From the NCBI GenBank assembly GCA_001630475.1, contig KV419406.1, forward strand, positions 133,892 through 197,891: DNA of 64,000 nucleotides, given 5' to 3'. The DNA comes from Sistotremastrum niveocremeum HHB9708 (lineage: Eukaryota > Basidiomycota > Agaricomycetes > Sistotremastrales > Sistotremastraceae). Shown here in pieces: positions 5,705 through 56,444 of this stretch; within the stretch, counting starts at the first letter, position 1, and every line of letters begins with the position of its first letter. The notes below the pieces were generated by a model that saw nothing but the letters and a program-made list of their open reading frames with translations, was not told the origin of the DNA and did not search any database. A program made the position numbers and the translations under genes.

Positions 5705-6060
5705 TACTGAATGTGGGTAAGGTAGCTCTTGCGGTAGCTAAACATGCGACTCGATGTACGCTTTTCACGTTTTGATCAAGAGCGAAGGATGTAAAAAGGT
5801 TTATGGGCTACAGCAATAATTAAGCATCGCGTGATATACATTACGGGTTACACCAGTTTGAAACTTCTATAAGGACAGTACGAGCATTATCCGCCGTCAG
5901 GCTTGACTGTCATACGTCAGATATTTCTTTGCCGGCGAGAAAGTGAGACTCACTCATTAAGGCACTCATCAGCAACAACGGCTCACAATCGGCGCACGGA
6001 ACTGCAAGAAAATATTCAAAACCTGCAATGTAGTGCGTCGGAAACTGGCGTACCACCATA
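5705..6060. other. Convergent intergenic region
   Basis: This lies between the 3' ends of the nickel transporter and EAF6 and presumably holds both transcript ends. No gene is seen. Confidence 0.4.
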
Positions 6061-6896: not shown

Positions 6897-8380
6897 ATGA
6901 ACGAGGAATCTATATTCTCGTGAGTCGCTCCCCTCGTCAGGATATCGATTTATTTTCTTAACACATCATTAAGATCAACTTTGTATCGACTTTCACTCCA
7001 GGCTCACCTCTTTTTCCGTACCATCGTCCCGGAGCCACAGCATAGACGACCAATCACTCTCAGCAATGCCTATATTCTCACCCTACCTTTCTATCCGATG
7101 CTCTTGATGGGCTACCTCGCCCGACGGCCTAATACCTATCTGCTACGATTATGTTTGGCGCCTCTAATCATATGGATAATCATCAAGACCTACTATTCCC
7201 ATTACTGGGTGCAGCCGTCTTTGAATGTATACAACTGGGGAATGGGTGAGTGCCCACTATGCAAGGCCAGATTATGAGCTCGATTATCGCGGCGTTTAGG
7301 TCTCCTGGCTCTTGCAATGACAGCCCGAGCCTTAGAATTCGCATATCTTCCACAAGGGATTTTGAAACGAGGAGAAGTTCGCCCGGGTGAGATGCTGACC
7401 CCTGCTGTCTCGCGCAAACAAGGCGTTCATGCACCTGGAGACGGCAGCTCGCTGAAACGACCCGCCTCTGGCCTCTTTCCCTTGTGGTTTCAAGATTCTA
7501 TGGAAGTTCTATGTGCGATGAGAGGCATGGGATGGCAATTCGGAGAAGGACTTCATGTCCCGGAGCAGACCCGACCTATCGAGCGCGCTGCCTATTTGAA
7601 AGCCACTCTGCGTTCCTGGACCATCAATTATATCGCATTGGATCTTCTCGAGTCCTTCATCAAATTGACGCCAAATTTGCACTCCCCTTCCGGCGGGTCT
7701 ATCTTTCTGCACACGCTCTCCCCGCTTCCCCGATATATGGTCTCAACTTCGGTCCAATTCGCGACAGGCATCGCCTTCATCATGGGCTTTGGAATGGTCT
7801 ATGATCTTCTGACCCTGTTTTGCGTCGGTCTCTTGATGCACTCTCCAACATCATGGCCTCCACTGTTCGACAAACCATGGGCAACCACCTCACTTCACGA
7901 CTTTTGGGCAAAGCGGTGGCACCAGATCCTTCGCCAAACCTTTCTTGTATTCGGCGGATTTCCCGGAAAACGAATCGCAGGTGATGCCGGCTTGGTCATT
8001 GGCACCTTTCTCGCCAGCGGACTGTTCCATGATCTTTCGATGTATTGCATGGGTCAGGGGACCAGTTGGGTCGTGGTCCTCTTTTTCTTATCGCAAGCTT
8101 TTGGGATGATATCCGAGAGAATGTGGAGGAAGATCACAGGGAAGCGTGTTGGTGGATGGCCGGGACGTGTGTGGACGTATCTCTGTGTTGTGGGATTGGG
8201 TCAGCCATGCAGTACGTTTCCATCCCCGTTCATAACGGTTCAGCCTCTCATGCATACCTAGTTGATACATGGCACCGACGAGGATTGGGCGGCGGCCTTG
8301 TCATTCCGCCTATGCTGAGTCCTACTCGTCGCATCTTCCCACTCTTCCAGCGCATTTTCGAAACGGTCCGTAAATCATAA
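6897..8380 (+). CDS. Wax-synthase-domain (MBOAT-type) acyltransferase-like membrane protein
   Basis: Family members are ER membrane O-acyltransferases related to wax-ester synthases; fungal members often act on sterols or terpenoid alcohols. Several hydrophobic spans are visible, for example ILTLPFYPMLLMGYLA and LRLCLAPLIIWIIIKTYY. The family hallmark is the stretch TTSLHDFWAKRWHQILRQTF at about 7890-7950, followed by a helix containing GLFHDL, whose histidine sits at the usual catalytic place. The start at 6897 (MNEESIFS) joins over a 54-base intron to the frame that opens at 6974. Another intron lies near 7244-7300. The last exon (about 8259-8380) begins after an intron at 8213. The length is about 440 residues. 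The substrate cannot be read from sequence. Confidence 0.82.
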
Positions 8381-8667
8381 GCAGCGTAATTCCTTCCATG
8401 AAAGTTCCCGCGTATAATGAATTTGACGGGTGACACCCTCACTGTGCGCGATTCGACACATGCTTGCAACCCGACCTGTGCGAAATACCGATCACAGTAC
8501 ATACTCGGATTATATGGCAGTCAATGGACAAAGATGCCTCAGCGCGCCCCTGTTCTAGTGTGTCACACGAAACTTGCTCGAATCGGAATTCAGGCTACCC
8601 TAGTCTACAAGATGAGTACATACAGATACAGTCCAGTCAGCAGATGATCTATCGCTGTGCTTGATAT

Positions 8668-10134
8668 CTAGTCCTTGTGAATCTCGATGCCGGGTGGTGC
8701 ACCCAAAGCTAAACTGGCGTCAGCAAGGTCGCAATTAGATGAACTCAATAGACTCACCTTCTTTGATACCCCCATAAATTAAGAACTGGCCAGATACCAG
8801 TCCAGCAGTCATAACCTATCGACCAAATAAGTTTTTGAAGGACACTCAAATATTCATAAATGAAACTTACCATACGTGGTCCAAGTCCGGCGAAGAGACC
8901 TTTGAATCCAGCCTCTTTGGCTAAAGTATATAATCGGGATGCCATCGGCCCACCGGGTCCGTGGCCCTTGTTAATCTAAAGAGAATCCTTAGTTAAACCG
9001 AATGAGCTTAAGATGCGGGAAAGATATACCTGGCTCAACAGAGTGTCGGCGGGCTATTGAAGAGGTTAACGCTTGTCGCATTCGGTCACCCCGGGACATA
9101 CATGTGAGAGAATGGCTGCAGCGAAACCTGCAATTATGCCACTTCCAAGGGAGATGCTGAACTTGGAGACACCACTCAAATTCGCCCGGGTCTCTTCGGT
9201 CATGGACCTGTTCGCTAGCTCGTGGCAAAATTCGTTGACAGTAAACCTGGGCACATGCTGAGTTTCTTCGGAACCTTCATGACAATATTTGATGATACGT
9301 ACTGTCCGATTGCGTATGGTATCTGTCTGAAAACGAGAGTCGGTTAGCTGCCTACTTCGGGGTCGAGCACACTTACTTGCACAGAATGGGCAAAAACCCA
9401 GCATACATGTCGCGCAGTCCGCCTTCACGAGCCAGGCGAGTAAATCCGGTAACTAATCCGGTGGCATACGTTCGGTCAGAGACAAGTCGGATACGCGTAG
9501 CTTCAAGAGGAGTAAGGAGAATATCCGCAAAAAACCTAGCATATATGCATCAGCGATCTATTCGGTATAGGGTATACGAGATACTGACTCTCCGACACTG
9601 GCAGCTCCTAGATAAATGGCAGTTCTATACTGAACAGCCACCTCTTGACTTCCGGCAATCTCTACGAATTTCTTCTTCCAAAATTCGTAACCGGCGAACT
9701 TGCCACCACCTTGAACAAGATAGCCCACAGCGGTCGGTCCGAATCCAGTCATGAGCCCCTTGGGTCCCTCAGCTGCGATAATCTTTCGTCCTCCAGACAG
9801 CAATGAATGGCGGGCCAGTTCGGGGTCGACTTGTATACGCGTCTTGACCACATCGAGCGCTATAATGAGTCGGCAAGAACGAAAACATATCAAGATGTTG
9901 GACTCGTCGAGGGATAAAACAACATACGGGTCATAGCGCCATGTGTGATCCTGATACGTTCAAGTAAATATTTGGTAAGAACAACATTGAGTGCGCGACG
10001 TACGTAGCACAGAGAGCCCCGGCGGTGAAAAATGCAGAATAATCACGCAATGTGAAGTTGGGAACGAGTGGAGAGGCAACCACAGTTCCTCCTCGAGGCT
10101 TGCTATCCGACTTGTCGCTCGCCATGCCAGTCAA
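8668..10134 (-). CDS. MIR1: Mitochondrial phosphate carrier
   Basis: An inner-membrane carrier of the SLC25 family that imports phosphate for ATP synthesis. Three carrier repeats are visible, each with the P-x-D/E-x-x-K/R signature: [11 protein letters not shown] in the first, [11 protein letters not shown] in the second and [10 protein letters not shown] in the third. Phosphate-carrier traits include [30 protein letters not shown] and [10 protein letters not shown]. At least eight exons with short introns are needed. The last exon ends with a stop at 8668. Two in-frame ATGs stand at 10134 and 10125; either could be used. The length, about 330 residues, is normal for the family. I favour MIR1 over the PIC2 branch because of the second signature, but the distinction is not certain. 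Confidence 0.9.
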
Positions 10135-25800: not shown

Positions 25801-26020
25801 TCATGGGGGAATTGTCCCATTTATACACCGTCAAAACGTTTCCAGCTCCGCCCAATTTCCAAATACAGGTGGAGACTGGTGGAGACTCTCCAGAGCTCAT
25901 GCTGACGTTCGAAGGGGAAACTGAGACACAAGACTCCGTGACAACTTACAAGAGAGCCTCGAAAATTGCTGCCCGCGGAGAGCTCCCAAAAATGACAGCA
26001 AAGAAAAGACTAATCTTGGC

Positions 26021-26385
26021 ATGAATTTAAGCTCCCAAAATTCTGAGGCCATCGTTCAAGTTCTGCGTGAAGATCAGGGCAAGACTCCAAAAGTAACTGC
26101 AAAGCCTTGATTGAGTTCGATCGACAGCAGTTGCTTATGTCATCACGAAGCGAAGCTGCTCGGAGTGTTATATCCGTAAATTCTATTTTTGATTCCGAAA
26201 AGTTGACATATGAAAAATACAAGAGCGGGAAGTGTTGGCTCGAGTGCCACGATTTGGCGAATCCCTGCCTGGAAATGTCCCCTTATTAACCTTGTTATTC
26301 TTCTCGAAGATCCAGAGAAACTCGCCGCGCCATCTGCATGTCGAAGTGCTCAAGTTGTATAACTACTAGTATTGACGTGAACGAT
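26021..26385 (+). repeat. Duplicated segment, copy lacking the transposon insertion
   Basis: 26021-26165 aligns with 42345-42497 and 26156-26385 aligns with 50098-50340. The two halves at the second locus are separated by the 7.6-kb transposon, so this copy is a paralogous uninterrupted site. Identity looks near 80-90 percent by eye. On the minus strand both copies keep a similar reading frame containing RAASLRDxIS and CRSNSIKALQ. Confidence 0.7.
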
Positions 26386-27800
26386 ACGTTGATCAGCGCT
26401 AGGATTCAAAGGAGGATTCGGGACAAAGATCGTGAGGAGGCTCTGAGGCAGTTGCGCCACAGTCGGAGCCACAATCCCCGTGGAATCCGTCAACGAAGTG
26501 AAGGTGGTGGAGCGTCAGGGCCAATCTGAGTGAATGGCGTGCTCGTGGTCGCAAGAGAATCAATCTCCAAAGATGACGTCTGAGTCAAGAAGGTGGGCTG
26601 AGACGAGAGTGAGATGGAGCTCGTGGGCGTCAGCGGGATGGTGGTCCGTGTCCGTGGTGGCCAGGGTGGTTGTAGGCGAAGAGTAGAGATATGACGGGTC
26701 TTTTGACAAAGTGAGTGATGCCGACGTGGTGAGCGTGCTCGCGACGGTGGAGATGTTACTGTCAGTAGCAACGGTGGCAGTATCAGTGCCAGTAGTAGAC
26801 ACGCCAGTATGGGTGGACACGACTATATATTTAAATCAGCTTAAGAGCACGTATTGGGGAAGAAAGTCAAACCTGAAGTAGCAACCGTAGTCGGCAAGTC
26901 CGTGCCAGTCGAAGCGACGACAGTAGAGCCAGTATTCGTATCAGTTGAAACAACACCGATGCCGAACTATCCGTATTCGTCGACGCGACGGTAGTAGGCG
27001 AAGAACTGCCAGTGGTCACGGTAGAACCCGTATCAATCGTAGCCTGAGTAGCACAAGATACGGTGGACAACCCAACGGCGGCTGAGGATACACTGGACGA
27101 TCCAGTCATAACAGTCGCGGTGACGAAACTGGTAACCCGTAGGAGACCACCAGAGGAAATCCTGGATGTCTCCTGAGGAGTGGACGTCGGGATAGATGTC
27201 GGGCTACTGTCAGCATCGACGTAGGAGTGCCAGAGCCTACATGAGAAATTAACACAGTTATTCAGAAAAGAAGGAACCATCATACCGGTGTCGTTCGAAG
27301 ATCTTTTGGGAGTATCCTTTGAAGTCTACATCCGAAAGCTGATCCTACATCTTATTTTCAGAACTACGGGCTTGAGCATCTCGAGTGCTCATTACCAGGA
27401 TTAGTGTCACTCAAAGTTCCAGGATCTAGAGGTGCGTCCTGAAGCGTTGAGGTTGGTCTATCCATCGAATTCATGGTGGACGATGCAGTGGGTGTCGAGT
27501 TTGGCGCATCGGTTGGCGTCGAAGTCCGTAAACCTGTCAAGGAGAGAAAAGGAAATGTAAGAAACAGAATTTGTCAGAGAAGTTAGAGATGGGGAGGAAG
27601 AAAAGAGAAGGTGACCCGGACGAAATAAAGGATGTCGAGAAGATCGACGAAAGCCTGAACGGTAAATGAAGGAAGGTGACGAATGAGAAAAATGACCGAA
27701 CACTTGAGAATGTTAATAGCGGAAGACGGGGCGGACGAAAGAGAGGCCGAAACAAGAGGGGACAAACAGATGAATATCGACGAATTAGAGGATAAAGACA
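26385..27800 (-). pseudogene. Broken partial copy of the MSB2-like mucin gene (copy 1)
   Basis: 26385-27290 follows 52055-53020 of the intact gene: shared peptides on the minus strand include STVASTLTTSASLTLS and TSSISLSSQ. 27320-27800 follows the 53200-53450 region. Compared with the intact gene it lacks the membrane helix and cytoplasmic tail, and its left end is joined directly to sequence that lies beyond the 3' end of the intact gene. The frame is repeatedly interrupted, so it cannot make the full protein. Confidence 0.7.
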
Positions 27801-27949
27801 GAATTTGAAAGTGGGGGAGACATTTAGAGAAGGAAAGTAGGAAGAGATGGACTCACTATAGCCTAGTATAGAGAGAGCAGGGGCCTATCAGTCGACACGA
27901 CAGAGATTATGAAATTGTTGAACAACACGAGCGTGCAGAGCGGCGGCTG

Positions 27950-28349
27950 CTGGCCTTCACTGAAACGAAGTGATTCAGAGAGGAGAAGAAGGAAAACGAG
28001 GACTTACGATAGGGCAAGGAGAGATCTGTCGGTCGGTGCGACAGAGGTTATGAAGGATCTTGAAGAACATTCCCGAACCTAGCCTCTTGCATGGCACAGG
28101 CAGTCCAGAGCTCTCGAGGGAGTTCATTCGTCCCGTACTCATCGCGCACCAAGACCCAGAACGAGCCCAGATGAACGACGATAGGAAGAACGTTGCTGAT
28201 GGCTTGTGGCCCGCCCCCTATTTAGACAGTCCCAACGGGAAAGCGAACTCACGACTCGACCACCTAGATGGTGGTCAAGTGAAGGAATGGAACGGGGATT
28301 CAGAATGCAGGTGCGTACCATTTATCGACCGTGAATGCGTTTCCAGCTC
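27950..28349 (-). repeat. Left arm of long inverted repeat 1
   Basis: This arm is near-identical to the reverse complement of 28650-29053. On the minus strand it reads GCGGAGCTGGAAACGCATTC, then the TATA-like CTAAATAGGGGGCGGG, the ATG exon, and a GTAAGT...TTTCAG intron-like segment. Confidence 0.85.
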
Positions 28350-28649
28350 CGCTCCAAAATTCCAGAGACATATCGAAAGTTTCCATAGATTTTGCTCTGG
28401 ATTTAAGGGGAAATAGAAATCAAGAGAGCTTTGAGAGTGAAAGACCGATTTGTCCTGAGCGGGCCACCAAACGAGCGTAAAGCTGAAGAGCACCGCAGCC
28501 GAACTCCGATTCCGTTGCTTTAGCACTGTCGCCGTGTTGCGCTGCTAAAGCTCTAAGGCAACGGTCTACAAACGGTCTACAGCTGTTCTTCTGACCGTCC
28601 TCTTGAATGTCCTTTTGGAGGAGACTGAGAGTCTGAGTTGTGGAAATGC
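28350..28649. other. Spacer of inverted repeat 1, with a smaller hairpin
   Basis: A unique 300-bp spacer between the arms. Inside it CCGTTGCTTTAGCA (near 28515) faces TGCTAAAGC...GGCAACGG (28544-28565), giving a smaller imperfect hairpin. GGTCTACA is then duplicated (28565-28582). No gene is seen. Confidence 0.6.
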
Positions 28650-29053
28650 GGAGCTGGAAACGCATTCACGGTCGATAAATGGTACGCACCTGCATTCTGA
28701 ATTCCCGTTCCATTCCTTCACTTGACCACCATCTAGGTGGTCGAGTCGTGAGTTCGCTTTCCCGTTGGGACTGTCTAAATAGGGGGCGGGCCACAAGCCA
28801 TCAGCAACGTTCTTCCTATCGTCGTTCATCTGGGCTCGTTCTGGGTCTTGGTGCGCGATGAGTACGGGACGAATGAACTCCCTCGAGAGCTCTGGACTGC
28901 CTGTGCCATGCAAGAGGCTAGGTTCGGGAATGTTCTTCAAGATCCTTCATAACCTCTGTCGCACCGACCGACAGATCTCTCCTTGCCCTATCGTAAGTCC
29001 TCGTTTTCCTTCTTCTCCTCTCTGAATCACTTCGTTTCAGTGAAAACCAGCGG
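28650..29053 (+). repeat. Right arm of long inverted repeat 1
   Basis: Reverse-complement partner of 27950-28349. It carries, on the plus strand, the TATA-like CTAAATAGGGGGCGGG near 28776-28791, an ATG at 28859, and a GTAAGTCC donor at 28995 with TTTCAG acceptor at 29040. The two promoter-like modules therefore point away from each other. Confidence 0.85.
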
Positions 29054-29390
29054 CCACACTCCCTCACACTTCCTGCGTCACAGCGCTACTCTCCCTATAG
29101 TGGTGAGCAACAATTATCAGTGCGCTGTCTTCATGAATATTGACACCTTGTTTTTTTCTTGGTCGAAGTTCGTGGCTGCGCTTGCCCCACACTTTCTTTC
29201 TCTGCCTCCTGTCCTCCATTTGCGCTGCGGAAGCTTCCAAAAAGCAGCAGCTGGCCATCCTCTCGCTCCGCTGTTGGCCAGACTCGGCCATGTGCGGCGC
29301 TCATTACGACAACGTGCCCAAGCCCTCGAGGATGCGCTCTCATGCGCTCCATCGAGGGTTTTCAAAAGTCGGTCAGTGTCCCATTTTGAT
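29054..29390 (+). repeat. Extension of the repeat family beyond the arm
   Basis: Similarity to the second locus continues: 28983-29350 matches the reverse complement of about 38050-37690, including the frame MPYRKSSFSFFSSLNHFVSV. Identity drops after about 29220, so the shared element tapers here. No protein family is recognised. Confidence 0.55.
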
Positions 29391-41795: not shown

Positions 41796-42299
41796 TGTCG
41801 AGAAGAGAACTGCAGGAAGAGTGAGAACACTACAAGAGAGCATCGAAGCAACGCACAAGAAACAGATATTGAGCGTATGTATTGGGGCTTGAATTGTGGA
41901 TTTTAGGCTTTGCTGGCCCAGTCGACTTTGATACTATGGGTCGGCGAGGGTGTCAATGGTCGGCGATTCGAATGCCGAAATACGTTCCTGGGCTGAAAGA
42001 GTGTGAAGTATAAAAGAAGTTGACCGTGATATTGTTTAAATAGCCGTAGTAGTCCAGGAACCTTCGTGAGCTGGACGCTGGCGGTGGTGGTGGTATGGGA
42101 GAAGGAATTGAACTTGAAGCCCCGATCGACGCAGCTCAGGTTGAACGCGACGCGCTCGGACCGACCTAAAGCCGTACTTACTCTGAAGAAAAACGAACAT
42201 CAGCAGCCGGGGTCGAACCTGTGTTGCTCATCCTGGCCTGAACAGTCTGAATTCAAACGTCGAAGGAAAAACAGAACCAGAAAAGCCTAGTACAATCTG
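41796..42299. other. Intergenic
   Basis: No gene seen. It probably includes the promoter of the hypothetical gene. Confidence 0.4.
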
Positions 42300-42497
42300 C
42301 TCCCAGAGACCTCCAAAAAAGAACGACAGCAGAAGAAAAACACTAATTTAGTCATGAAATTAATTTACCAAGAATTTGAGGCTTTCGTTGGGGCTCTACA
42401 TGAAGATCAGGGCGAAACTCCAAAAGTCGCTGTAGAGCCTTGATTGAGTTCGATCGACAGCTGTCGCTTATGTTATCACGAAGCGAAGCTGCTCGGA
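42300..42497 (+). repeat. Left half of the duplicated segment flanking the transposon
   Basis: Matches 25985-26165 and stops at the target duplication. Continues at 50108 on the far side of the transposon. Confidence 0.65.
42488..42497 (+). repeat. Target site duplication, left copy
   Basis: GCTGCTCGGA, repeated at 50098-50107. It can be read as 11 bp if the next A is included. The uninterrupted paralogue at 26156 has a single copy. Confidence 0.85.
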
Positions 42498-42498
42498 A

Positions 42499-44870
42499 GC
42501 ATATACAATTGTGCCCCAAAGTTTGGCTATATTGCCCCATAGCACAGAAATTTTGCCCCATGGCCCAGCTATTTCGACCCAAAGCCTCAAAAATTTAGCT
42601 CCATAGCAGTCTTTTTGGCCCCACGGTTCACTCAATTTCGCTCCAATGTTGTTCATCTTTCGCTCCAAGGGAAGCCTAATTTGCGTCCACGATGATTCCT
42701 ATTTCGCCCCGTTCTCTCACTGGTTCGACCCAGGCAAAGCTCTGTTTTCCTCCATTCAAACCACAGCGCCTAGAAGATATTTAGCCCCATCGCTTTGTAT
42801 TGTTACCTCAAAAGCAGCCATTTCGGGCCCCTGATGGCTGCTCACTGCTGTGCTCGACTCTAGACTTTCAGAATGGACTGATTCAAGCATGGTGTGAGTA
42901 GATTTGGACATGTAGTGGGTTCTGACAATATATCTTTGTGGTGCTCTCACAATGTTCGCGGCGGGGTACTTCATAATGTTCCCGCCATCCAAACTTCCTC
43001 GGCTTGTCAATGAACACGCTTAGAACTCCTGTTCATTGTTACTTGCCGCTCTGTTCTTGCGCTGGCTGATATCAGATCATACTAATATTTAATCATGCCG
43101 GCCTCTGCTCGCTTGACATAGATTTCAGCAGCTCGTCACTGCATTAGTCGACTCGCATGCGCAATTACAAGGCGACTTCAAAGCGACTTGAAGCACAGCA
43201 CAGATTGGCGGATTGGCATTTTTTAAGGATCACATTTCGATCAAAGCCGATTATTTTTATTATCTGACAAGTGTCCAAAGACACCTAGGACTGACAACGT
43301 GTTTATTATTGCGTACATGTTGACAGTGACCTGGTACATAAAGCTGGCATAGAGTTTTGCAAAATGAACGTAATCACGTTGAAAATTAGCGCCGGGTTTT
43401 TGGTAGCGCAAACACGCCGCCGTACGAAACAGAGGTTGGTTATCCGTGGCCAAACTCGTGGCTATGTAGGTATGCCAATGGTCTAGCTACTATCCGACCA
43501 AGTTTTTCTGACCACATTGCTCTATTTCACCCCAAAGTGATGTCTTTTGGCCCCGCGTGTCTGCAGCCATTTCGCTCCATTCACGGTCGTTTCGCCCCAT
43601 CGACCTCCGCCAATTTCGCCCCTTGTAAACTCACAATCAACCTTTACCGTCCTTCATCTGATCTTGAAAGAACCGGTCACGATTCTTTGGTCTCAGAGTC
43701 GTAAGGTGGGGATTTCGTCTGTAGGTGAGGGGCTTTCATTGGTGTACAAGGTTCATCTCATGGCTATCCTGGGCTAGATAGGTATGCCAACACTCTACCC
43801 ACTATTATGGCAGATTGTGCTGACCATATTATTGCAATCCGCGCCAAAGTCATGTCTTTTGGCCCCGGGTATCTGTCGTTTCGCCCCATCGACATCCGCC
43901 AATTTCGCCCCCTCTAAACTCAACACCGCCCTTTGCCATCTATCAGTTCATCTTGCACTGTCTGCTTAAGTTACTATCGTCTGAGAGTCGTAGCGTGGGT
44001 CTGTAGGTGAGGGGCTTTGATGGTTGGCGTGTCGTCTCGTGGTGACATGCCGGGATGCTGGCAGATTGGCGGGTCTCGAACACAGCGACGAATGAACAGT
44101 GTTCTGATTTGTAGGTTTCTGTGGTTTGGCCGTCCGTTTGGTGCCGGGCGCATGAGAACTGACGGTAGGACAACAGGTCGTTTGTTCGCGAGCTGTGATT
44201 CTAGGGCAGGGCAATGATCAATATTACAAGAGTCATAGCTTGGGCATCGGAAGTCGGGCAGTGATTGCATGGGTGGCACAGGCGTGCAGCGTATGCGAAC
44301 GAATGTCGTGCGTATTTTTGCCCCATGATCTCTGACCTATAGCTTATTTCGCCCCAGCCCATAAGTCCCTGCGGAAATTGCTCCATTCACACTGAGGTGC
44401 GCTCTAATTGTACCAAGTTTCTTTCATGACAACCCGATGCACCCAGGTACGGTCTTAGACCCAATCATTGGTTCCAAGACCGTTCGTCTGCGTGAGGCTC
44501 ACAGGCGGCGCGGCCACGGGGTCGTACGACGTACTACTCGCTGTCAATGAGGACATTGTGCAGCTGTGGGAGAGCAAGGTGCGGTCGTGGCAGAAATTCT
44601 GATTTATGCAATCGATAGTGTCGGCCCGGTGAGAGCGAAACATCATGTCTCGTTGTCATCCCTGATTCCTGCGGAGCTTTCTTTGGGCGAGAGCCCAAGG
44701 TTGCAGGATGCTTTGAAGAATCATGACATCCTCTGTGGAAGGTGGTGATGATTGGGACGAATGGGACGAAGAGGGTTCAGGAATATCGCCCCACCGCCTC
44801 TGGGATTTCGCCCCATATGTCCCTACCCTCAATTTTTTCGCCCCATCCTGTCTTGTATTTAGCTCCAGGT
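42499..44870 (+). repeat. Left subterminal array of TTTCGCCCCA-like motifs
   Basis: Dispersed short motifs of the form TTT(C/T/G)G(C)CCC(A/T), with variants such as TTTCGCTCCA and TTTGGCCCC, occur in the plus orientation, for example near 42550, 42620, 42705, 43590, 43612, 43872, 43905, 44345, 44810 and 44840. Each is separated by about 15-40 bases of unrelated sequence within clusters. Likely binding sites for the element's own transposase; that is inference. Confidence 0.7.
43465..44030 (+). repeat. Tandem duplication of about 300 bp inside the transposon
   Basis: 43465-43775 and 43778-44030 share, in order, GGTATGCCAA, CTGACCA, AAAGT.ATGTCTTTTGGCCC, the TTTCGCCCCATCGAC cluster and GTCTGTAGGTGAGGGGCTTT. 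Confidence 0.7.
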
Positions 44871-45455
44871 ATGTTATCAACTCTCCACTTCATTTCTGAA
44901 TCGTTATGCGACCATCTAACACCCGTCTGCTAAGCCCACCATCGGCTTGTATGTCGGCATTGGCCCCACTCAGGCTCAGAGACGATGGTCTCGGTTTGGA
45001 GGTGTCCTGCAGGCCAGAGCTCGACGCTTGGACCCTCACGTTGGCTCTCAGTGCGTGGGACGTCTGTTCAGCTGGAGCATCTCTGTTGATCACTTGTTGA
45101 CAGTTGGTTAACTGAGGCGAACATTGTGGATGAATCATGAATTTCGTCGTGCTAAGTTCCAGCTGGTTTCGCAGTCCGAGGACCACGCAGATCGCGGTTG
45201 GATTAGGTTTGATGGAAGGTTGTAAATTCTATGTCTGGGTGATAGTGGAGGTCACCGGGAGTGGAATTGTGTTGGGGCTGGAATGCAAATGTGATAGCGA
45301 ATAGTTGTATTGAGTCTGCGCCGGTCATAGTACATAATAATAAGTTTATCTATATACATTATGGGGTGGCCTCCGGGCTGCTACAGCTCCCTAATATATG
45401 AAGTAGTTTTGCTCATCCAAACTGGATGTGTCCTCGCTCTCCAGATCCTCGGTTT

Positions 45456-47847
45456 TCAAATACTCTCCATGCTCATGTGGATCGCTTCATTCTTCTTTGT
45501 CGACCCAGCAGTGCCACTGTTGTATCGGGTGATCGCCTGGATCACATGAAATTGACAAATGCGGATGCAAGCGTCAGGCCAGACTAAGACGCGCGTTTAG
45601 CACAAGGCAGGACGCGGATAATGAATGACTTACTCTCAAGTATAGCATTTTTCTCCGCAGTACTCTTGTCAATCATCCAGAACAAAGGCTGAAAGCCATG
45701 CTTCAATATTCTGGAAGCGTTCTTGCGGATCAGCTTGCATTCTTCAGGTGTTCGTCTCCAGGCGTCCTCAATCTCGGCCCCATCTAGAACAGCAGAGACC
45801 GTCTTTGACTTAGACATATGTGTTCTGCGCTGCAACAACCGGCGGACTGACCTGCCAACTGCTGGCACCTCTTCAGCAGTTTCTCCAGAAAAGCTTGGAG
45901 CATTGCCACCAGTGTCCTTTTCTTGATATTTTGGGTGACCCATGCCGCGCCTGCACCCAAAATCCTGTCAGTAACATAAGCCCCACATGAGAATAGACAT
46001 TACCAGGAGCTCCGTGACCATTGTTATCCACCGTGATAATCAGAGTCAGCGGGGCATAGTTTTCATTCACCCCTCTAAACTTGGAATCCAGGGCAACACC
46101 CTGGAGCAAATAAAAAAGTATTATTGACTCAAGAGACCACAGATCCGTAATGCCAATAAGCAACTCGGTTCCAGGGTCCTTTCCCTTCTTTGGCGTATAT
46201 GGGAGGTAACTGGGAACTTGTCAGCACGCATCCTCGGAAAGCAAGCGGAGGACCATACATGAATACGCGTTCTGGATTTCGCTCTGCAAAAATCCCCAAA
46301 GCTTGAAATGCGTCCGCATGCAGCCGCCCTCGTTTTCGCATTGTGTTGACGACAGTTCTGATGTCGTAGATGTCCGGTTGTCGGTAAAGTGGTAGCTTTG
46401 GACCATTTGGATGACCCTTCTCAACACGATCCGTCAAGTCTACGGTTATGGTCAAGGACTTTATTCGCAATGTTGGAACCATTACGACTTACTCCTCATT
46501 ATAGTACCAGCTGTCAGCACACTTCCACCCTCTCGCGCTGAATCCCCCACGATTGCTCTTATATGACGCGAATATTCTAGCTGTTTCTCTGGGTCGGCAC
46601 AATCCTTGTGCCGATGACGTTGCCAAATTTCAACAGTGGTAAGATCCCGGGCCACAATTTCCAACTGAAATGGCATCAAACACAGCATTCAATTGGTGAG
46701 AAAACAAGCACTGACCACCCACTGCACTTTACATGCCCGAGTCTCTCGAGTCTCTCGCTTCCTTTTCTTCTTGGCTGGTTGCCCCTCTTTCGCTCCCCCC
46801 TTAGGCGCTCGAAAACTCTTGAGTCCGGGACCGACATGCTCGCGGTGAGAACCTGATGAATATCCGTCCTCCGAGTCTGGCTTGCTATCCGCATCCTCAA
46901 TTCCTGCCCACGAGTCATCAGAACCCCCCTCTGAGTTGTCGCTCCCGAAACCACCCCCCTCGTCCAAGTCATCCTCGCTGTCATCGTCGTTCTCTTCGCC
47001 TCCACTCCCTCTGTCTTCTTCGGTGGTCCCGTGCTTCGATTGGCCGTCTGATGCATTTCCATCCCCCTGCTGACTCCCATCTTCCACTATTGGACAGCAC
47101 GTGCCGGAGCACTCAAGGCTGTGGCGATATACCACCTCATCGTCGGCCTTTATTTGATCCCATAAACGGGCGTCCACATCCTTGCCAACTTTCAAGGCAA
47201 ACCGACGTGCCCGCGGATCAAGCAAGTCAATCCCCTTCTCTTGTATCCAATGCTGCTCCACTTCTGCAGCTATTGACCTGACTTTCAGTCGGAAATCATT
47301 TTTCTGTCACACAGATTTTCCAGTCAGCTTTGTGCCCTCAAGCAATTCCACTTCCACCACAATCTGAGTTACTAACCTCTTGTTCAAAAACGTAAACAAG
47401 CTCGTCAAGAGGCACCTTCTTAATCATTCTCCATTCGTTGGGATCTCGATCAATTTTCAGCATACGATGGCGCTTTTGACTGGGGCCGTTTTGTCTGACA
47501 CTTTTCACAGACGCTGCGGGAGGGCTTGCACTGATTATCAAGAAACCCGCTGCTCTCCGTCTGAGATCTCGAGCTGTGTTTGGTGTCACAAAGATCTGGT
47601 GATCCAACGACTCTTCGGTCTCATCCTCAGCGGTTGGCGCAAAGGGTCCTCGCCGAGTCCGTTTCTTAACCGGGGAAGGCGTCCGGGGTGCTTGGAGGAA
47701 TCTGACTTGCAGCTCTGCAGGCGACGAAGGAGCGGTAGTCTGGTCCTGAGCTCGCTGTCGACGTGCTTTTGCTGGTCGACCTGGCCGTACACTCCCTTTG
47801 GCTGTAGGAGGTACTAGTGGCTGTGCATAACAGATATCAGTAGACAT
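45456..47847 (-). CDS. MULE-type DDE transposase, truncated at the C-terminus
   Basis: The start at 47847 (MSTDICYAQPLVPPTAKG) is preceded on the minus strand by a TATATATA-type stretch near 47865-47874. Exons give a basic N-terminus, KNDFRLKVRSIAAEVEQHW with DLLDPRARRFALKVGKDVDA, an acidic Ser/Asp-rich linker (about 47020-46850), a block near 46680-46500, and the start of the catalytic core. That core reads GVALDSKFRGVNENYAPLTL (first Asp), GFQPLFWMIDKSTAEKNAI (second Asp), then after an intron WPDACIRICQFHVIQAITRY, the C-x2-H motif of this superfamily. The frame stops at 45456, about 25 residues later, before the region where relatives place the catalytic Glu and the conserved Trp-rich segment; no such sequence is readable downstream. 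Splicing at the GTATTT near 45461 also meets a stop. Confidence 0.75.
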
Positions 47848-48719
47848 TCATGCACATTAATGAATATATATAAAGCATACCACATGACGCTTGGGTCTCC
47901 TCATGGCTGGGGGCGCAACGGCAAGCTTGTGGACAAGTCCGACGAAAACTGTACAGTCGGTCACGATCCACACGTGAGACGGGATCAAATTCCAGACACC
48001 GCCAAGTTTGTGTTGACAGTATGCATAGATTATCTACTCGTTTGATAAGGACTGTCTATACGCCAGACCTGATGGGAGACACATCAAAAGCTCGATTGGT
48101 GCATCTCAGGCCTCATCTGCAGCCAAATTGTCGAGTTCGGGAGTCTTGTCTTTCAGACTGCAGGGGCCGGCGGAGACAGATCCAACGAAGAGGTGACGGG
48201 CTGATATTTTCAGCGACCAAGCCAGAGAATCCCAGAAACACAAGAGGACCAATGACCCTTGCTATCCTGACCCCTCGTGCTCAGCAATCACAAGCGGATC
48301 CGGGAAAGCCACATAAAGCAGGATTTTGGGAACATAATCTGCATAATCATGGTACTCATATGTGCTGCCAGCCAGATGAACAAAGACACGTTTAGCCATC
48401 TTCGTACCAAACCAAACCGAGAACAGAGCGCCGGAAGAATGACCATGCCATCGACGAATGGGGCAAGATCAGACTGAATCCTACAGTTAGATTTGACGAT
48501 TTCAACCCCCGGATAACACGCAAGAGTCTCCGTCTTCAGGCGAAAGACATTCCAGTATGATCAACAAGTGAGAGCGGAGACGAATACATACGTAGACGCC
48601 TTTCGGCTAAAGCGCCCAACACGTGTAGTCCCTTAACGCGAAGTCGATTTTTATGCCGGCTCCGATCCATTGACAGCATTCACACCGCCAGTGCTGCAAG
48701 ACCACATATCGACTTGTCT

Positions 48720-50097
48720 GGACCGATATGAAATTGAAATGGCCGAGCCACTGGGGCCAAATGGCAAAGAAATGGGGCGAAATTCATGAAAACATCGATA
48801 TATATGTATATATACAGGAGTCTATACTTTGCACAGAGTCCCATTGTTCAGCCATCCATCTAATGCATTGTCAAAGAGTGTTCAGGCACAGATTCCAGCA
48901 GTGTGGACAAAAAGATGCGGACAATGGGGCCAAACCATCGAGCGCCGTCCCTGCCCTCCCCCCCCCCCGGACATGGTTTTCCGAGGCTCGGCGGCGGGCC
49001 ACAACGGGCAACACTGTTTGTATGACAGGGTAAGTACGCTTTCAGGTGCATATTAGGTAGGCTAAGGTGGCTCACCTCCAAAACTCAAACACTCTCCGAT
49101 GCCTAGGTCTACGATATAGACCCCGTGGTGCTTCGCATTCACTCATGGCCCCATCTCGCACAACCAAATCGACGAAGATTTGTTGAATCGGCAGCGATAT
49201 CAATGTGCGTCTCTTGCATGATGGAGTGAACAAGCCGGAAACTGAGAAGATGGAGCCAAATTACTCATCTGAGTCGTGGAATGGGGCGAAAAGCCATGGA
49301 AGCTGGACCAAAATTGACGTTGCAGCTGAAAGCTATTTCACAAGTTGCATTGAGGACGGAGTGAGAGGCATACTCGGCGGGCAGATCGAGTGCGGCAGAC
49401 GGTGTTGATGGCACTGCAGACTCAGGCAAGAGAGAAAGATGATTCAGTGACAGGGAACATCTATACTGACGCAATTATGCGAAGTAGCAATGGATCAGGG
49501 CTTCAGAAGAGTCGTCAACCCCAGACGCAATGAGACACGTCGCTACGAGGCGACATGATAATATGGGATGGGCCGAGGTGAGAAGAGGCACATTTCTTGA
49601 ACATCTTGAGCCTGGCAACCCGCAGTAGGATGGAAAGGTGCCTCAGTACGAAGAAATGGACGTAGCCAGAGCGAATTGATGATCAGAGGCGGTTGATGGG
49701 CAGGCACAGAGGAAACCGAGGGGATGAGAGCCCAGAGTCAAGCAATCGACCTTGTGCTGCGTCGGTGGCCGAGTCACAGACTTGCGAAGGAGTGTAGGAT
49801 CCCCCGATAGCCAGTGCGAGAATCTAGAATGAGTGAGGTGAGCTTTGGACGAAGTTGGGATAGGATGGGGCAATATTCATCGACTATGGAGCTAAATTGG
49901 CATGACCTTGGAGCGAAAAGGAAATGCGTCTGGGGCAAAATGGGACTCCGTTTGGGCACAAATTGGGGGAGTTTTGGGGCAGATTCACACTCAATGGAGC
50001 GAAATAAATTTCACTTTGGGGGAAAATACATAGGCTGCGGGGACAAATGGACTAGCTATGGAGCGATACTGGGTAAAAATGGGGCACAATTATTTTG
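48720..50097 (-). repeat. Right subterminal array, mirrored motifs
   Basis: The complement motifs TGGGGCGAAA/TGGGGCCAAA/TGGAGCGAAA occur near 48752, 48772, 48925, 49253, 49280, 49870, 49907, 49932, 49996 and 50060, in opposite orientation to the left array. No gene is seen between 47848 and 50097. Confidence 0.7.
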
Positions 50098-50107
50098 GCT
50101 GCTCGGA
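50098..50107 (+). repeat. Target site duplication, right copy
   Basis: GCTGCTCGGA, identical to 42488-42497. Confidence 0.85.
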
Positions 50108-50340
50108 ATGTTATATCCGTAGATTTTATTTTTGATTCCGAAAGGGTTGACACATGAAAATACAAGAACGGAAAGTGTTGGCTCGAATGGCAAAATTTGG
50201 TCAATGCCTGCCATGGGCATGTCCCCTAATTATCCCTGTTTTTCTGCTCGAAAATCCAGATAAAGCCGTTGCGCCTTTCTGCCTGTCGAAGTACTCGAAT
50301 TCTACAATACAGTATAACTTGATCAGTACTGTAGCTTTCG
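50108..50340 (+). repeat. Right half of the duplicated segment
   Basis: Matches 26166-26385 (TTATATCCGTA, TTTTTGATTCCGAAA, AAGTGTTGGCTCGA and following). 50341-51179 beyond it holds no supported gene apart from the patch at 50615-50670 shared with 24115-24190, and GA/AAAG-rich sequence near 50790-51020. Confidence 0.65.
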
Positions 50341-51179
50341 GAGAACCTGGGCGAACGGGATTGCGACAATCAAGACTGATTTGTTTTTCTCTGAATATAC
50401 TTTGACGCAAAATATTGTTGTCGAGAGCAAAGAGGCCGTTTTGATTTGAAAAACGTGCAAAATTTTTGACGGACTTTCGAGTGAAGGACTTGAGATCTTT
50501 GGACCGACTGCTGTAGTCAAACATCAATGACATATTATGCAGTTCAGCCTGAGACTCGCCAGACAGCCGCCTTTGGGCCAATGGCATCACGCCATCACAG
50601 AATGATTTTCCGAAATAATTTATTCGTGAGACTACACCGAATATTACGAATAACCGTATATCCAAAGCGTAGCCTGGATTTCCCATTTGCTATTAACAAG
50701 ATCAGTAAGAAACTTCTCCTTTGTCTTGGAGTTTGTCAAGCGGGGAGATAGAAACTCGACCCTGCAGTGAAAGTTCAAAAGTGTATCAAAGAGACGAGGA
50801 AGAATGAAGAAAAAGGGGAACAGGCCAGTGTCGTGTCGAAGGCTAAGGAGCGTGTGTGCGTAAAGGAGCGGAATATAAAAGAGTGTGAGGACGGGCACAA
50901 GTGTACCCATGATAGAAGGATAAGTTAAAAATAGGGTAGGGGTATTGTTCACGAAAAGGGCCAAGAAGAATCAAAGAAAAGAAAATCCAAAAAACCGAAC
51001 AGAAAGAAAGAAAGAAAGAGAAAGCTCGATGAAATAACGCTGAGAGGGAAACGAAGGCCCTCGAACCACCAGCGCAATGGAAAACGAGTCCATCCCGAAA
51101 TGAGAAAGTCTATAATTTTGGGTGAAGATGAGAGAAAGAAATCGGCATAGATGACCGATCCAAATTAATGTGGATCGTA

Positions 51180-54100
51180 TCACCAGTTGAGGGTGTTGTC
51201 CCTGAGGATGGGAGCAGAGATGTGCTGAGGAAGGACGGGTCTCCTCTGCTGCATCTGCGGGCTAAGACGGTGATTATAACCCATCTGCTCTTCCTCTCGA
51301 AGTTCTCGGTTCGGGTCCTGGAACCCTCTCAACGAATCCTCCGCGAAGTAGAAACTGTTGCGACGGCCATCAGCGCCAACGCTCATCTCTCTAACGCCGA
51401 ACTCTGCCGCGCCGTATCCACTGGCGGGCACCATGTCACTTTGAGCTCCGGATAGACGACGATGAGCGCTCTCTCTGCGGATCTTCATGTTCCGATAGAT
51501 CCACCATCCAAGGACCAGAAGGGCGATTCCGCCAATGGCAGAACATACTCCAATGATGGCGTTTCTCCTCTTTGTACCCGCGGCCAGGGTTCCTACAGAG
51601 CTATCGCTCAAGCTCGGGGTATTGTTCGAATTGCCACCGTTCGAAGAACCGGAAGACGAAGAAGCGACTGGGAAATTGCCATTCACATTAGCAGCGAGCT
51701 GCGAAGCTATACCACCGCTAGCTGAATAGAACTCAGAGTTGCGAGCCTTCAGTTCGAGCGAAAGCTGGTCCACGGAATCGGTAGGAATGTAGCAATAGAA
51801 CATAGTGAGGAGCGTAGACGGATCTCCGTTGTAGTTAGCAGGGATGTACACTTCGAGAGCGTACGTCTTGACTTGATCGGCTATTACAGAAATGTTACGA
51901 TAAGAGTATGATAAGTAGTATACAATAAGACTAACCTGTCAAACCAAGCGCATTTTGAAGGACCTGTGGCATATATGCGAAGATCTGACCAATCGTCTGT
52001 TGGTTGGTCGCAACGAAGCCCCAATCCAACGTCGACGTAAATAGGATATTGATCAACGTGTATCCGGAGAGATCAGTGTTAGGATCCAGAGGAGGATTCG
52101 GCACAATGATCGTTGGAAGACTTTGAGGCAATTGCGCAACAGTCGGAGCCACGGTACCCGTGGAATCCGTCAAGGAGGTGAAGGTCGTCGTCGGAGCATC
52201 GGGGTCAGTCTGGGTGAACGACGTGCTCGTGGTCGCGAGAGAATCGATCTCCAACGACGAAGTCTGCGTCAAGAAAGAGAATTGGGACGAGAGGGAGATG
52301 GAGCTCGTGGGCGTCGGCGGGATCGTGGTCAATGAGTCAGTATCCGTGGTGGCCAGGGTGGTCGTGGGCGACGGGAACAGAGATGACGGATCTTCTGACA
52401 ACGTGAGTGATGCCGACGTGGTGAGTGTGCTTGCGACGGTGGAGATATTACTGTCAGTAGCGACGGTGGCAGTATCAGTGCCAGTCGTAGACAGGCCAGT
52501 ATCGGTGGACACGACTATAACTTCAAATCAGCATAAGAACACGCATTTACGATTAAGTCCTTACCTGAAGTAGCAACCGTAGTCGGCAAGTCGGTGCCAG
52601 TCGTAGCCACGACAGTAGTCCCGGTATTGGTATCGGTTGAGACAACACTCGTTTGGACGACCGATGCCGAACTATCCGTATTCGTCGACGCGACAGTAGT
52701 AGGCGACGAACTGTCAGTCGTCACGGTAGAGCCCGTATCGGTCGTCGACTGGGTGGGACCTGATACGCTAGACGTCCCAATAGTGGTTGGACCGGTAGTG
52801 TCGGTAGTACCACTATCTGTGGCCGATGATACGCTGGTCGATCCGACAGTGACAGTTGAGGCAACGGTACCCGTATCAGTAGGAGACCCAGTAGGAGTAG
52901 TACTGGGGGTGTCAGTGGGACTTCCAGTGGGTGTGTCCGTTGGAGAAGACGTCGGGGTCGACGTAGGCGTATCCGTTGGCGTATCTGTCGGCGTCGAGGT
53001 AGGAGTGTTAGAGCCTACATGATATATTAGGACAGCCGATTAACAGGCAAGAAATCGTGATACCTGTGTCGGTGGGCGAGCCTGTGGCAGTATCCGTAGG
53101 AGTCGACGTCGGGGTACTTGACCCTACATCCAGATTTTAGCGATACAAATTTGTACATTGCAAGAATCATTACCAGTATCGGTCGGGCTCGAAGTTGGAG
53201 TATCCGTAGGCGTGTCCGTAGGCGTCGATGTCGGTGTATCCGTCGGCGTGTCAGTGGGCGTGTCAGTCGGTGTCGATGTCGGTGTGTCGGTCGGAGTATC
53301 CGTTGGCGTCGACGTCGGGGAACCTGTCAAGGAAAGAGAAGAAGTGGAAGAAACAGAAGAAGCCGAAGAAGGCAAGGATAAGGAAGAAGAGAATGAGTCA
53401 GATGACCCGGATGAAATGGAAGATGTCGATGAGATCGACGAAGGCCCGAGAGGGGTGGATGAAGGAACGGATGGCGATGAGAGAGAAGAAGGACCGGTGA
53501 AAATGGTGGTCGAAGACGAAGAAGATAAAGGAGTGGATGAAACAGTAAGTGACGAAGAAGTGATCGGCGACGAGATGGAAGAGGAAGGAGTAGAAGACAA
53601 AGAGTCGGACGTGATGGTAGAAGGACCAGAAAAGATAATGGAAGAAGATAAAGGAGTGGAGGACGAAGATATCGGAGAGGAAGAGGAAGATAAAGGAGTG
53701 GACGAGATAATAATAGGAGATGAGGGAGAAGATGAAGGAGTGGAAGAAGTAACAGTAGAAGAGAATGAAGAAGCGAAAGTTGAAGGAGAAGAGGAAGGAC
53801 CGGTTGAATCAGTACTTTGGCTCGCAGACGTAGGCAAAACGGTAGGGGCACCTGTAGGAGTATCCGTTGGAGTATCGGTGGGAGTCGATGTAGGAGTATC
53901 CGTTGGGGTGTCCGTTGGTGTATCTGTCGGCGTTGAGGTAGGAGTGTCCGTGGGCGTCGAAGTTGGGGTGTCCGTTGGAGTATCGGTCGGGGTGTCAGTC
54001 GGTGTCGAGGTCGGAGTGTCCGTCGGGGTGTCAGTCGGAGTGTCGGTGGGAGTCGAGGTCGGAGTGTCTGTTGGAGTATTGGTGGGGGTGTCCGTCGGCG

Positions 54101-56444
54101 TTGGCGTCGGTGTATCTGTGATTGAAGAAGAAAACGACGAAGTAAAGGAGGAAGAAGAAAGGACAGAATCGGTAGAGGAAGAAGATAGCGATGAAGGAGT
54201 GGATGAAGAGAACGTCAACGAAGGAGATGAGGGAGGAGTAAATGAAGAAGACGAGGACGAAGAAACAATTGGTGTAGAAGGCGACAATGAAGATGAAGAT
54301 AAGGAAGTGGGAGTGAACGAAGGAGAAAAGGGAGGAACAGATGATTGAGTAAAGGTCGAACTCGTAGAAAGAGTTCTTGTACCTGTCGGCGTCGTCGTCG
54401 GCGTTCCCGTATCCGTGGTGTCGGTCCCAGTGCTCGTGACCGTATCCGTAGTATCCGTCGACGTAGACGTCGTCACAGCTGTAGTAGAAAGAAAACAGCC
54501 AATGAGTACCGCGAAAGACCTAGGATTACGAGTAACTTACTTGACCCTGTATCCGTAGGAGTGGTCGACACGCCTGTGTCCGTGGGCGAAGTCGTCGGTC
54601 CATCGGTCGGGCTATCAGTTGGCGTTGACGTAACTGTACCTGTGGGAGTAGAAGAAGGGAATAATGTAGGAAACGAAGGGGTAGGGAAGGAAAGGGTAGG
54701 GAAGACAGAAGAGGAAGAATGGGTGGGGAGAATCGGGGGAAATACAAAGGAAAACGAAGACGACGTCGAAGTGGACGTAGTCGAATCCGACGAAGGAGTG
54801 GAATCCGAAGTAGAATCCGAAGTGGTCGTTGAAGTCAACGAAGTGGACGAAGAATCGACCGAAGAAGTTGGCGAAGTTGAAATGAACGAAGAAGTGGAAG
54901 AAATCGAGTCAGTCGTCGAAAGAGACGAGGTCGACGATTGAACAACCGAATCGGTAGTTGAAGTGGTAGAAAACACAGAAGTGGAAGAAGTCGTCGAATC
55001 AGACGATGAAGTAGAAGAAGACACCGTTGAAGGTGTAAAAGGAGGAGGTGTTTCAAGAGACACCGATGAAGTAGTAGACAACGTTGAAGAAGAAGACGTC
55101 GAATCAGACGTGGTTATTGAAGTTGAAGTAGTCAAAGACGAAGTCGTCGAAAAAGTTGAAATTGGAGTTGAAGAAGAGGTTGTGGTTGAGTCAGTCACCG
55201 GTGATGTTGTGGAAGTTGTGATTGTACCTGAATCGGTGGTGGTGGTGGTGGGAGTGTCGGTTGGGGTGGTCGAAGTCGAATCGGACGTCGTGGTGGTGGT
55301 ATCTGTATCTGTTGAAAAAGACAAAATAGTGGAAGAAGATAAGGTCGACGTCGACGTCGAGGAAGAAGTCGAAGTAATAATTATGGGCGAAGTGGAAGAA
55401 GTGGTCACGGAATCAGAAGTCGAAGTTGAAGTGGTCGAAGTAGTTAAAGGAGTTGAAGAAGACGATGAAGATGTTGTGAAAGTTGTATCAGACGAAGTTG
55501 TAAGGGAAGTGGAGGAAGTGGTAGAGGTAGTCAAGGAAGGAGTCGAAGACGTAGTAGAGGTGGTGGAAGTCGTTGTAGGAGTGGTTGAAGTAGTGGAAGG
55601 GGTAGGGGTTGAAGACGATGTAGTCGTCAAAGTGGTATCGGTAGAAGTGGTAGATAAAGTGGTAGATAAAGAAGACGAAGTCGACGTAGACGTCGTAGAA
55701 GTAGTGGTAGGAATAGTCGTCGTCAAAGACGAAGAAGTAGTAGAAGTGGTAGTCAAAGATGAGGAAGAAGAAGTTGAAGTTGAAGAAGAGGAGGAAGTTG
55801 TTGAATCAGTACTTGAAGTCGTGGTACTCGGGGTAGGAGCAGGTGTACCTGTGGAAGTAGCTGAAGTGGTCGTAGTAGTCGAATCAGTGGTGGTGGAAGT
55901 GGTGGAAGAAGAGGTGGTAGTACTTGAAGTGGTTGTGGTGCTATCACTGGTAGTAGTGGTAGTGGAAGAGGTGGTGGTCGAGGTAGTAGAATCAGAAGTA
56001 CTACTCGTCGTGGTCGACGAATCCGTGCTCGAAGTACTGCCTGGAAACGATGGAGCAGGGGAGACCACAGCCGCGGAAGAGGTAGTGGTGGTGGGAGTTG
56101 CTGATGAGGTTGATGAAGACGTTGAGGTTGACGTGGTTGACGTGGTTGACGTTGAGCTGGACGTACTTGTGGTAGAGTTGCCACCATCCAGTAAATTATT
56201 CACAGGCGGAGGGAGGGCTTTTGGGCAATTAAAACGCGAACAAAGGGACGCGAAGGGACGTACCATCGACTACAGAATCTACAACGTCTCCAATGCTCTG
56301 TCTCTGAGCCAGCTGCAGTGATCTAACCCGTCGTTGTATGTCGCCATGTGCGCGGGACCAGAGGCGATCGGGACGGGCATTGACGAATTGGAGAAGAACA
56401 AAGAGAGCAAAGAGACGAATAAAGAGACGGCATATCGATTGCAT
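51180..56444 (-). CDS. MSB2: MSB2-like signalling mucin
   Basis: A cell-surface glycoprotein that in fungi signals through Cdc42 to the filamentous-growth/pathogenicity MAP kinase cascade. The start at 56444 opens a signal peptide (RLFIRLFALFVLLQFVNA). An intron near 56261-56216 leads to a very long Ser/Thr-rich extracellular part, including TPTDTPTSTPTDTP-type repeats (about 53220-53340 and 53850-54110). Introns every few hundred bases keep the frame. The membrane-proximal part reads LINILFTSTLDWGFVATNQQ, VLQNALGL, YALEVYIPANYNGDP and MFYCYIPTDSVDQLSLELKA, resembling the Hkr1-Msb2 homology region. One helix follows (AIIGVCSAIGGIALLVLGWW), then a tail of about 90 residues ending ISAPILRDNTLNW at 51180. 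Length is of the order of 1,500 residues. Broken partial copies lie at 24.5-27.8 kb. The MSB2 name is a family inference from architecture. Confidence 0.78.

Follow-up and report, generated by a model that had tools for sequence, protein, structure and literature searches.

The stretch analysed here, a 64,000-bp window of the basidiomycete Sistotremastrum niveocremeum HHB9708 (GenBank assembly GCA_001630475.1, contig KV419406.1, positions 133,892 to 197,891), harbours a 7.6-kb block between 42.5 and 50.1 kb that is very probably a Mutator-like cut-and-paste element (MULE), and probably a non-autonomous one. The block is bounded by a direct repeat, encodes a truncated transposase on the reverse strand and carries arrays of a short, inward-facing motif at both ends, and the sequence on either side of it is found a second time, uninterrupted, at 26.16 kb of the same window (Table 1).

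Borders of the element and its empty site

The 10-bp word GCTGCTCGGA occurs at positions 26155, 42488 and 50098 of the forward strand and at 3675 of the reverse strand. At the borders of the element the direct repeat is identical over 11 bp (GCTGCTCGGAA), in agreement with the initial annotation, which had described a 10–11 bp direct repeat bounding a 7.6-kb block. The inverted 12-mer AATTGTGCCCCA is present once per strand in the window, and when 7775 position pairs with the same separation were taken in steps of 7 bases, this element alone combined a direct 10-mer with an inverted 12-mer repeat.

The same annotation had proposed that an empty site is kept at 26.16 kb, where the flanks join without the block, and BLAST, a genome search and an alignment of the joined flanks all bear this out. 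The two BLAST pieces of the empty-site region (25969–26164 and 26155–26372) share exactly the 10-bp target. When the flanks were joined at one repeat copy and aligned with positions 25965–26375, 336 of 404 columns were identical, with 20 gap columns and no break at the join, i.e. both flanks match the same place, 25.97–26.37 kb, continuously. With the empty site as the query, a search of all 111 contigs of the genome (34.7 Mb) listed three places among the best candidates that it scores, the site itself and the two half flanks. At this sensitivity, the flank is thus no dispersed repeat.

Comparing the filled and empty states was expected to fix the ends of the element; it does so to about one base per side, which leaves a target-site duplication of 9 to 11 bp. 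Chance matches of neighbouring bases allow any of 9, 10 and 11 bp. Two related copies in the same genome (C44 and C24, see below) have duplications of exactly 9 bp, so that one or two outer bases of the 11-bp repeat in the window may be such a chance identity.

Most likely, the flanking segment was duplicated first and the element then inserted into one of the copies. The initial annotation took this order as established; it is the simplest reading, but precise excision as reported for Muta1 (PMC5225508) permits loss of the element from the copy that is now empty. The element would then predate the duplication, and the empty site would be a healed donor. In yeast, Muta1 excision is precise in around 90 % of revertants when the element is flanked by its target-site duplication (PMC5225508), and a precisely healed site would be indistinguishable from the sequence at 26155–26164. 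Nonetheless, we consider prior presence followed by excision quite unlikely, as it requires one extra event, as no footprint is seen at 26155–26164, and as the flanks are just 81–83 % identical, so that the duplication is old.

The duplicates themselves differ beyond 26372 and 50315, and their homology returns at 26391 and 52071. Around 1.74 kb beside the insertion site is thus present in one duplicate only (26372–26391 versus 50315–52071) and holds a reverse-strand frame at 51180–51938.

Table 1. Features of the element, its flanks and the empty site (window coordinates)
Feature	Position	Strand	Remarks
Left target-site duplication, GCTGCTCGGA(A)	42488..42498	+	11 bp identical; 10–11 bp in the initial annotation; 9 bp should the C24/C44 value apply
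Right target-site duplication	50098..50108	+	Exact direct repeat with the left copy
Probable Mutator-like element, 7.6 kb	42498..50097	-	Orientation taken from its own gene
Homologous empty site	25969..26372	+	One target copy, 26155–26164
Left flank	42297..42497	+	Homologous to 25969–26164, 80.6 % (BLAST)
Right flank	50098..50315	+	Homologous to 26155–26372, 81.9 % (BLAST)
Truncated transposase gene	45456..47847	-	8 exons, 7 GT-AG introns, 664 aa; exons hand-picked by homology with C11
Outermost inverted 12-mer AATTGTGCCCCA, left	42507..42518	+	
Outermost inverted 12-mer AATTGTGCCCCA, right	50080..50091	-	
Left terminal array	42509..42831	+	13 TTNNGCCCCA-like motif calls; 9/12 gaps of 20–22 bp
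Second left motif group	43525..43912	+	5 + 4 calls; gaps of 20–24 bp
Third left motif group	44316..44867	+	7 calls; looser spacing
Inner right motifs	48752..49330	-	8 calls, some weak; looser spacing
Right terminal array	49866..50089	-	12 calls; 9/11 gaps of 20–23 bp

The truncated gene and its relatives

The gene inside the element was assembled from exons at 47847–47377, 47303–46716, 46664–46493, 46439–46259, 46209–46004, 45950–45852, 45783–45634 and 45583–45456, which together give a frame of 664 aa without a stop or frameshift. The spliced protein matches the Pfam MULE transposase domain PF10551 (E-value 5.8e-8, 33.5 bits, cut-off 27.6). This match was obtained with the spliced protein only; for 10 of 65 single open frames (60 aa or longer), the best Pfam E-value was 0.12. 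In a complete MULE catalytic triad (DDE), a CxxH stands between the second Asp and the Glu. By eye, the first and second catalytic aspartates, D1 (LDSKF) and D2 (MIDKS), and a CxxH (CQFH) can be placed in the window protein, which ends 29 codons past CQFH.

With the longest exon as a query, a single relative was found in the genome, on contig C11 (48 % identity, 3.5e-27). Over 667 aligned columns, its protein shares 45 % identity with that of the window element. The C11 element measures 14.6 kb (around 784935–799541) and has inverted repeats of 98 bp that are 86 % identical. Its protein reaches 26.4 bits against PF10551 over the full 848 aa, just below the cut-off of 27.6, and 29.6 bits for the 368-aa catalytic part. 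A candidate catalytic Glu lies in NNWVEALF (by eye), and a SWIM finger (PF04434, 1.1e-6) was the sole match above cut-off among ten C11 pieces; zinc fingers such as SWIM occur in many MULE groups, though not in every one. Downstream on the same strand, a Ulp1-like stretch matches Peptidase_C48 (PF02902, 1e-4, 22.7 bits, cut-off 20.7) and is interrupted by a nested insertion of around 290 bp (by eye). In a sequence search of the PDB, the piece L005:5428–5799 (contig C11) weakly matched a single entry, sentrin-specific protease 2 (E = 0.13); for the catalytic part of C11 there was no match up to E = 10. Across the window and C11 proteins, the only Pfam domains above cut-off are MULE, SWIM and Peptidase_C48; DUF4512 matches at 0.12 and 0.7 are below it. 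In all, three nested insertions lie in or near the C11 element (L005, around 5957–6247, 7012–7756 and 7937–9893), of which, by eye, two seem to be flanked by TA and to have inverted ends; among the three, one has 42-bp inverted repeats at 97.6 % identity.

Of the C11 parts with the Glu, the SWIM finger and the protease, exon matches and tblastx gave no sign in the window element, and the Pfam search found no SWIM finger in the truncated protein. The C11 exon starting at the CxxH matches the window over residues 13–56 of 135 only, and with a later C11 exon as a genome query the window was not among the matches listed. Below 45.4 kb, tblastx of C11 against the window gave short, weak pieces only, again among the matches listed. 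Since these parts are missing, the window copy is most likely unable to move alone, i.e. probably non-autonomous. The frame that is still open suggests a recent truncation, or a shortened protein still under constraint.

A genome-wide search with the element tips had been suggested for finding further copies. The left tip (113 bp; the only tip used as a query) found itself only, but when the search was moved to the related subfamily, a C11 end recovered copies with their own duplications of 9–11 bp. Three short copies, C39 (1477 bp), C44 (1442 bp) and C24 (1465 bp), share 75–82 % identity with one another and are too short for the gene; their exact duplications measure 11, 9 and 9 bp, respectively, and C39 has 96-bp inverted repeats (80 %). 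For a further copy, C64, one end only was found. The family is thus real, with short and long members in one genome. Four other MULE-domain loci (L014–L017 on contigs C27, C17, C6 and C100; pieces of 1.9–3.3 kb) show weak similarity to the C11 protein (best 2.2e-7).

The naming of the element as Mutator-like stands, given the PF10551 match above cut-off and the 9–11-bp duplications of related elements in this genome. MULE duplications range from 8 to 11 bp (PMC6446971), and those of the window element (11 exact, 9–11 possible), C39 (11), C44 (9), C24 (9) and C11 (8 exact) lie within this range. A Kyakuja-Dileera-Zisupton (KDZ) element is in our judgement an extremely unlikely alternative. KDZ transposase domains are present in the genome (19 matches; an example lies at C24:55294–56181), protease-bearing KDZ members exist, and the 8 exact bases of the C11 duplication equal the KDZ length. 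None of the 19 matches is inside the six elements, however, and the KDZ domain PF18758 is absent from the Pfam matches of both spliced transposases up to E = 10, a search in which the HMMER filters drop most weak matches. Apart from the PF10551 match, the exact duplications of 9–11 bp in four copies also differ from the 8 bp given for Zisupton (PMC12730594). The KDZ domains elsewhere in the genome, like the gene structure, point to a basidiomycete host.

Phased motif arrays at the ends

The initial annotation had the ends carrying an inverted repeat. The inverted 12-mer exists, but it lies 9 bp (left) and 6 bp (right) inside the tips as given by the 10-bp repeat, and is only the outermost unit of an array; the offsets in the relatives are similar, not identical. 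Long terminal inverted repeats are typical of MULEs, although some are without them; in the window element the 12-mer and the arrays were seen, and the longest ungapped pairs across the element are 38 nt at 71 %. Among the two-ended elements, the first motif begins 9–12 bp inside the ends, and AAAAT near the tip is common to both subfamilies at the end upstream of the gene. At the end downstream only GC is common, maybe by chance; a shared GC....AC pattern considered there was dropped on recheck.

Arrays of inward motifs resembling TTNNGCCCCA were found at 11 of the 11 ends examined, i.e. those of five two-ended elements and the one end of C64. The initial annotation mentioned neither these arrays nor the truncation of the gene. 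With a loose 10-base score, 119 of the 152 spacings of up to 60 bp are 20–23 bp, most commonly 21 (52) or 22 bp (37). The terminal 300 bp of the window element (both ends and strands) contain 24 motif calls with 18 spacings of 20–23 bp, compared with means of 3.4 and 0.05 and maxima of 9 and 2 in 500 base shuffles; among the 20 spacings elsewhere in the window, 2 have this length.

The motifs are also one-way. TT-preceded GC(C/T)CCA words are inward in 17 and outward in no case in the left arm (42498–44870), 11 and none in the right arm (48750–50097), and number 3 and 4 in the remaining 55,095 bp. Without the TT condition, the inward and outward counts are 18 and 0 (left) and 13 and 1 (right), and in 1000 dinucleotide shuffles the inward words averaged 1.5 and 1.3, with maxima of 10 and 6, for the left and right arm, respectively. 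The four other MULE-domain loci contain 0–3 such words per strand. Across the genome, a strict pattern of three GCCCCA words occurs in 2 places and a looser one in 9, of which 5 are in the C11, C13 and C39 elements (those on C1, C6, C23 and C46 were left out of the comparison); the reverse complement of the looser pattern gave the same 9 places.

It is very unlikely that the arrays are a decayed minisatellite without function. Tandem expansion is known to build arrays of this kind, and the element does contain one internal tandem duplication: the second left group sits in two tandem copies, 43460–43739 and 43772–44021 (68 %, BLAST). Nevertheless, the motif core keeps 89–91 % identity across elements versus 48–57 % for the spacers. 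In four C11-type upstream ends, 94 of 106 comparisons of the core and 107 of 222 of the spacers gave identity (82 of 90 and 142 of 250 with C39 as the defining row), counting the region beyond the inverted repeat only and leaving out the row that defines the sites; spacer alignment is uncertain, so that spacer identity may be underestimated. Furthermore, motif and period are common to the window and C11 subfamilies, despite proteins that are 45 % identical.

Silencing escape is another function that may be considered by analogy, with an element-encoded protein coating the motifs as VANC does on the VANDAL MULEs of Arabidopsis. VANC21 binds a 9-base motif that is densely arrayed in noncoding DNA, with its copies pointing the same way, and that has spread through tandem repeats (PMC5735166). 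The window motifs are likewise one-way and outside the placed gene, with tandem copies of around 0.3 kb in the left arm, and the inner groups at 43.5–44.9 kb extend more than 2 kb from the left end, beyond the apparent need of end binding. We regard this function as unlikely, though less so for the inner groups, since the arrays begin near the tips at all 11 ends, with tight phasing there, which fits end recognition, and since no VANC-like protein was identified in the Pfam searches, which were made without a VANC profile. Helical phasing at the tips is not described for VANDAL in the accessible portion of that report (PMC5735166).

Motifs 21–22 bp apart all face roughly one side of B-DNA, which fits a row of weak sites used together. 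From the spacing and conservation of the motifs, we somewhat favour the prediction that the transposase, or a companion protein, binds to the arrays in phase.

Several observations weigh against the element as interpreted here. On the side of the protein, the Pfam match is carried mainly by the D2–CxxH stretch, D1 and the Glu having been assigned by eye, and Peptidase_C48 was matched by one of five pieces of the C11 protease region. The C11 duplication is just 8 exact bases (8 of 9 in register, by eye), and the sole long relative has nested insertions, so that no clearly intact autonomous copy is among those found. As to the arrays, there are only two subfamilies, so that the number of independent cases is far below the 11 ends. 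Moreover, the weights of the 10-base score were set by eye after viewing the ends, and because of this the period was also examined with CCC triplets. At the two window ends, lags of 21, 42, 63 and 22 bp lead (9, 8, 7 and 7 pairs), followed by 64 and 43 (6 each), against an average of 1.1 at lags off the multiples of 21 and 22. Lags 21 and 22 together have 16 pairs versus a mean of 0.9 in 2000 base shuffles, but the shuffle maximum of 11 indicates that chance clumps of C are not negligible.

Proposed mechanism and relation to known systems

Transposition of Mutator-like elements is a DDE-catalysed cut-and-paste reaction in which the staggered target cut is filled in as a duplication. For the window copy, a full-length transposase from a C11-type relative or ancestor would have bound the ends and cut the element out, which would then have been joined to a staggered cut in one of two already duplicated segments, with repair giving the target-site duplication. 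The motifs every 21–22 bp are the predicted sites, on one helix face, for several copies of the transposase or companion protein, and such a row of weak sites would be recognised together instead of one long terminal sequence. It is tempting to speculate, although we think it quite improbable, that the arrays seed a regular filament along both ends with one element-encoded protein per motif, at every second helical turn; its assembly, in place of a single terminal site, would define the end and perhaps shield it from silencing, and the truncated 664-aa protein, with its N-terminal half kept and the Glu lost, would be a binding-competent, cutting-dead regulator of its relatives.

Parts of this organization are known from other elements. 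Muta1 and the MULEs of Aedes aegypti have duplications of 8–9 bp, many non-autonomous derivatives and nine 12-bp subterminal repeats in their inverted repeats (PMC5225508), so that short copies and repeated units at the ends are shared with the elements described here. In Muta1, however, the repeats are 3–4 bp apart in a 145-bp inverted repeat (PMC5225508), whereas here a 10-bp motif recurs every 21–22 bp between divergent spacers over around 0.2–0.45 kb, in addition to the inner groups. The combination of a MULE transposase with a Ulp1-like cysteine protease, seen here in C11 only, resembles the plant KI-MULE/Kaonashi elements (PMC2528002). Those have plant hosts, a protease gene in reverse orientation to mudrA and no inverted repeats (PMC2528002), in contrast to the Ulp1-like stretch of C11, which is downstream on the same strand. 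Dense, one-way arrays of short motifs in noncoding parts, partly spread in tandem, are shared with the VANDAL elements, with the differences given above. Finally, Galileo and Foldback-type elements have several transposase sites in their long terminal repeats, which are proposed to supply specificity (PMC3688188). The sites in our elements are predicted; Galileo is related to the P element, and its sites, at around 70, 561–577 and 701–718 bp, do not recur every 21 bp (PMC3688188).

Two features elsewhere in the window may be mentioned. At 27945–29055 there is an inverted repeat with 408-bp arms, 99 % identical and around 295 bp apart, parts of which recur at 25.5 kb, 37.7–38.1 kb and 38.8–39.0 kb, beside a masked stretch. 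At 53000–56300, the GC skew (excess of one of G and C over the other on a strand) reaches 0.63 in 1-kb steps over Ser/Thr-rich repeats of the TPTDTPT type, where both strands have open frames of 400–600 codons.

As a transposon insertion the event is nothing unusual, and MULEs are a known kind of element; the phased array is new as far as searches of an open-licence library show. Among the papers listed there, judged by titles and the starts of abstracts, none dealt with a fungal MULE with a Ulp1 domain or with terminal motifs phased at 21–22 bp, which is not proof of absence. To our knowledge, end recognition by Mutator-like transposases is poorly known. In the present family, the ends come down to a short word, spaced by nearly two helical turns and kept while the spacers drift, which leads to a direct binding hypothesis. 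Paired filled and empty sites, together with a small family that includes short members, make this a tractable system, and if the arrays did prove to act against silencing instead, the VANDAL system would have a counterpart in fungi.

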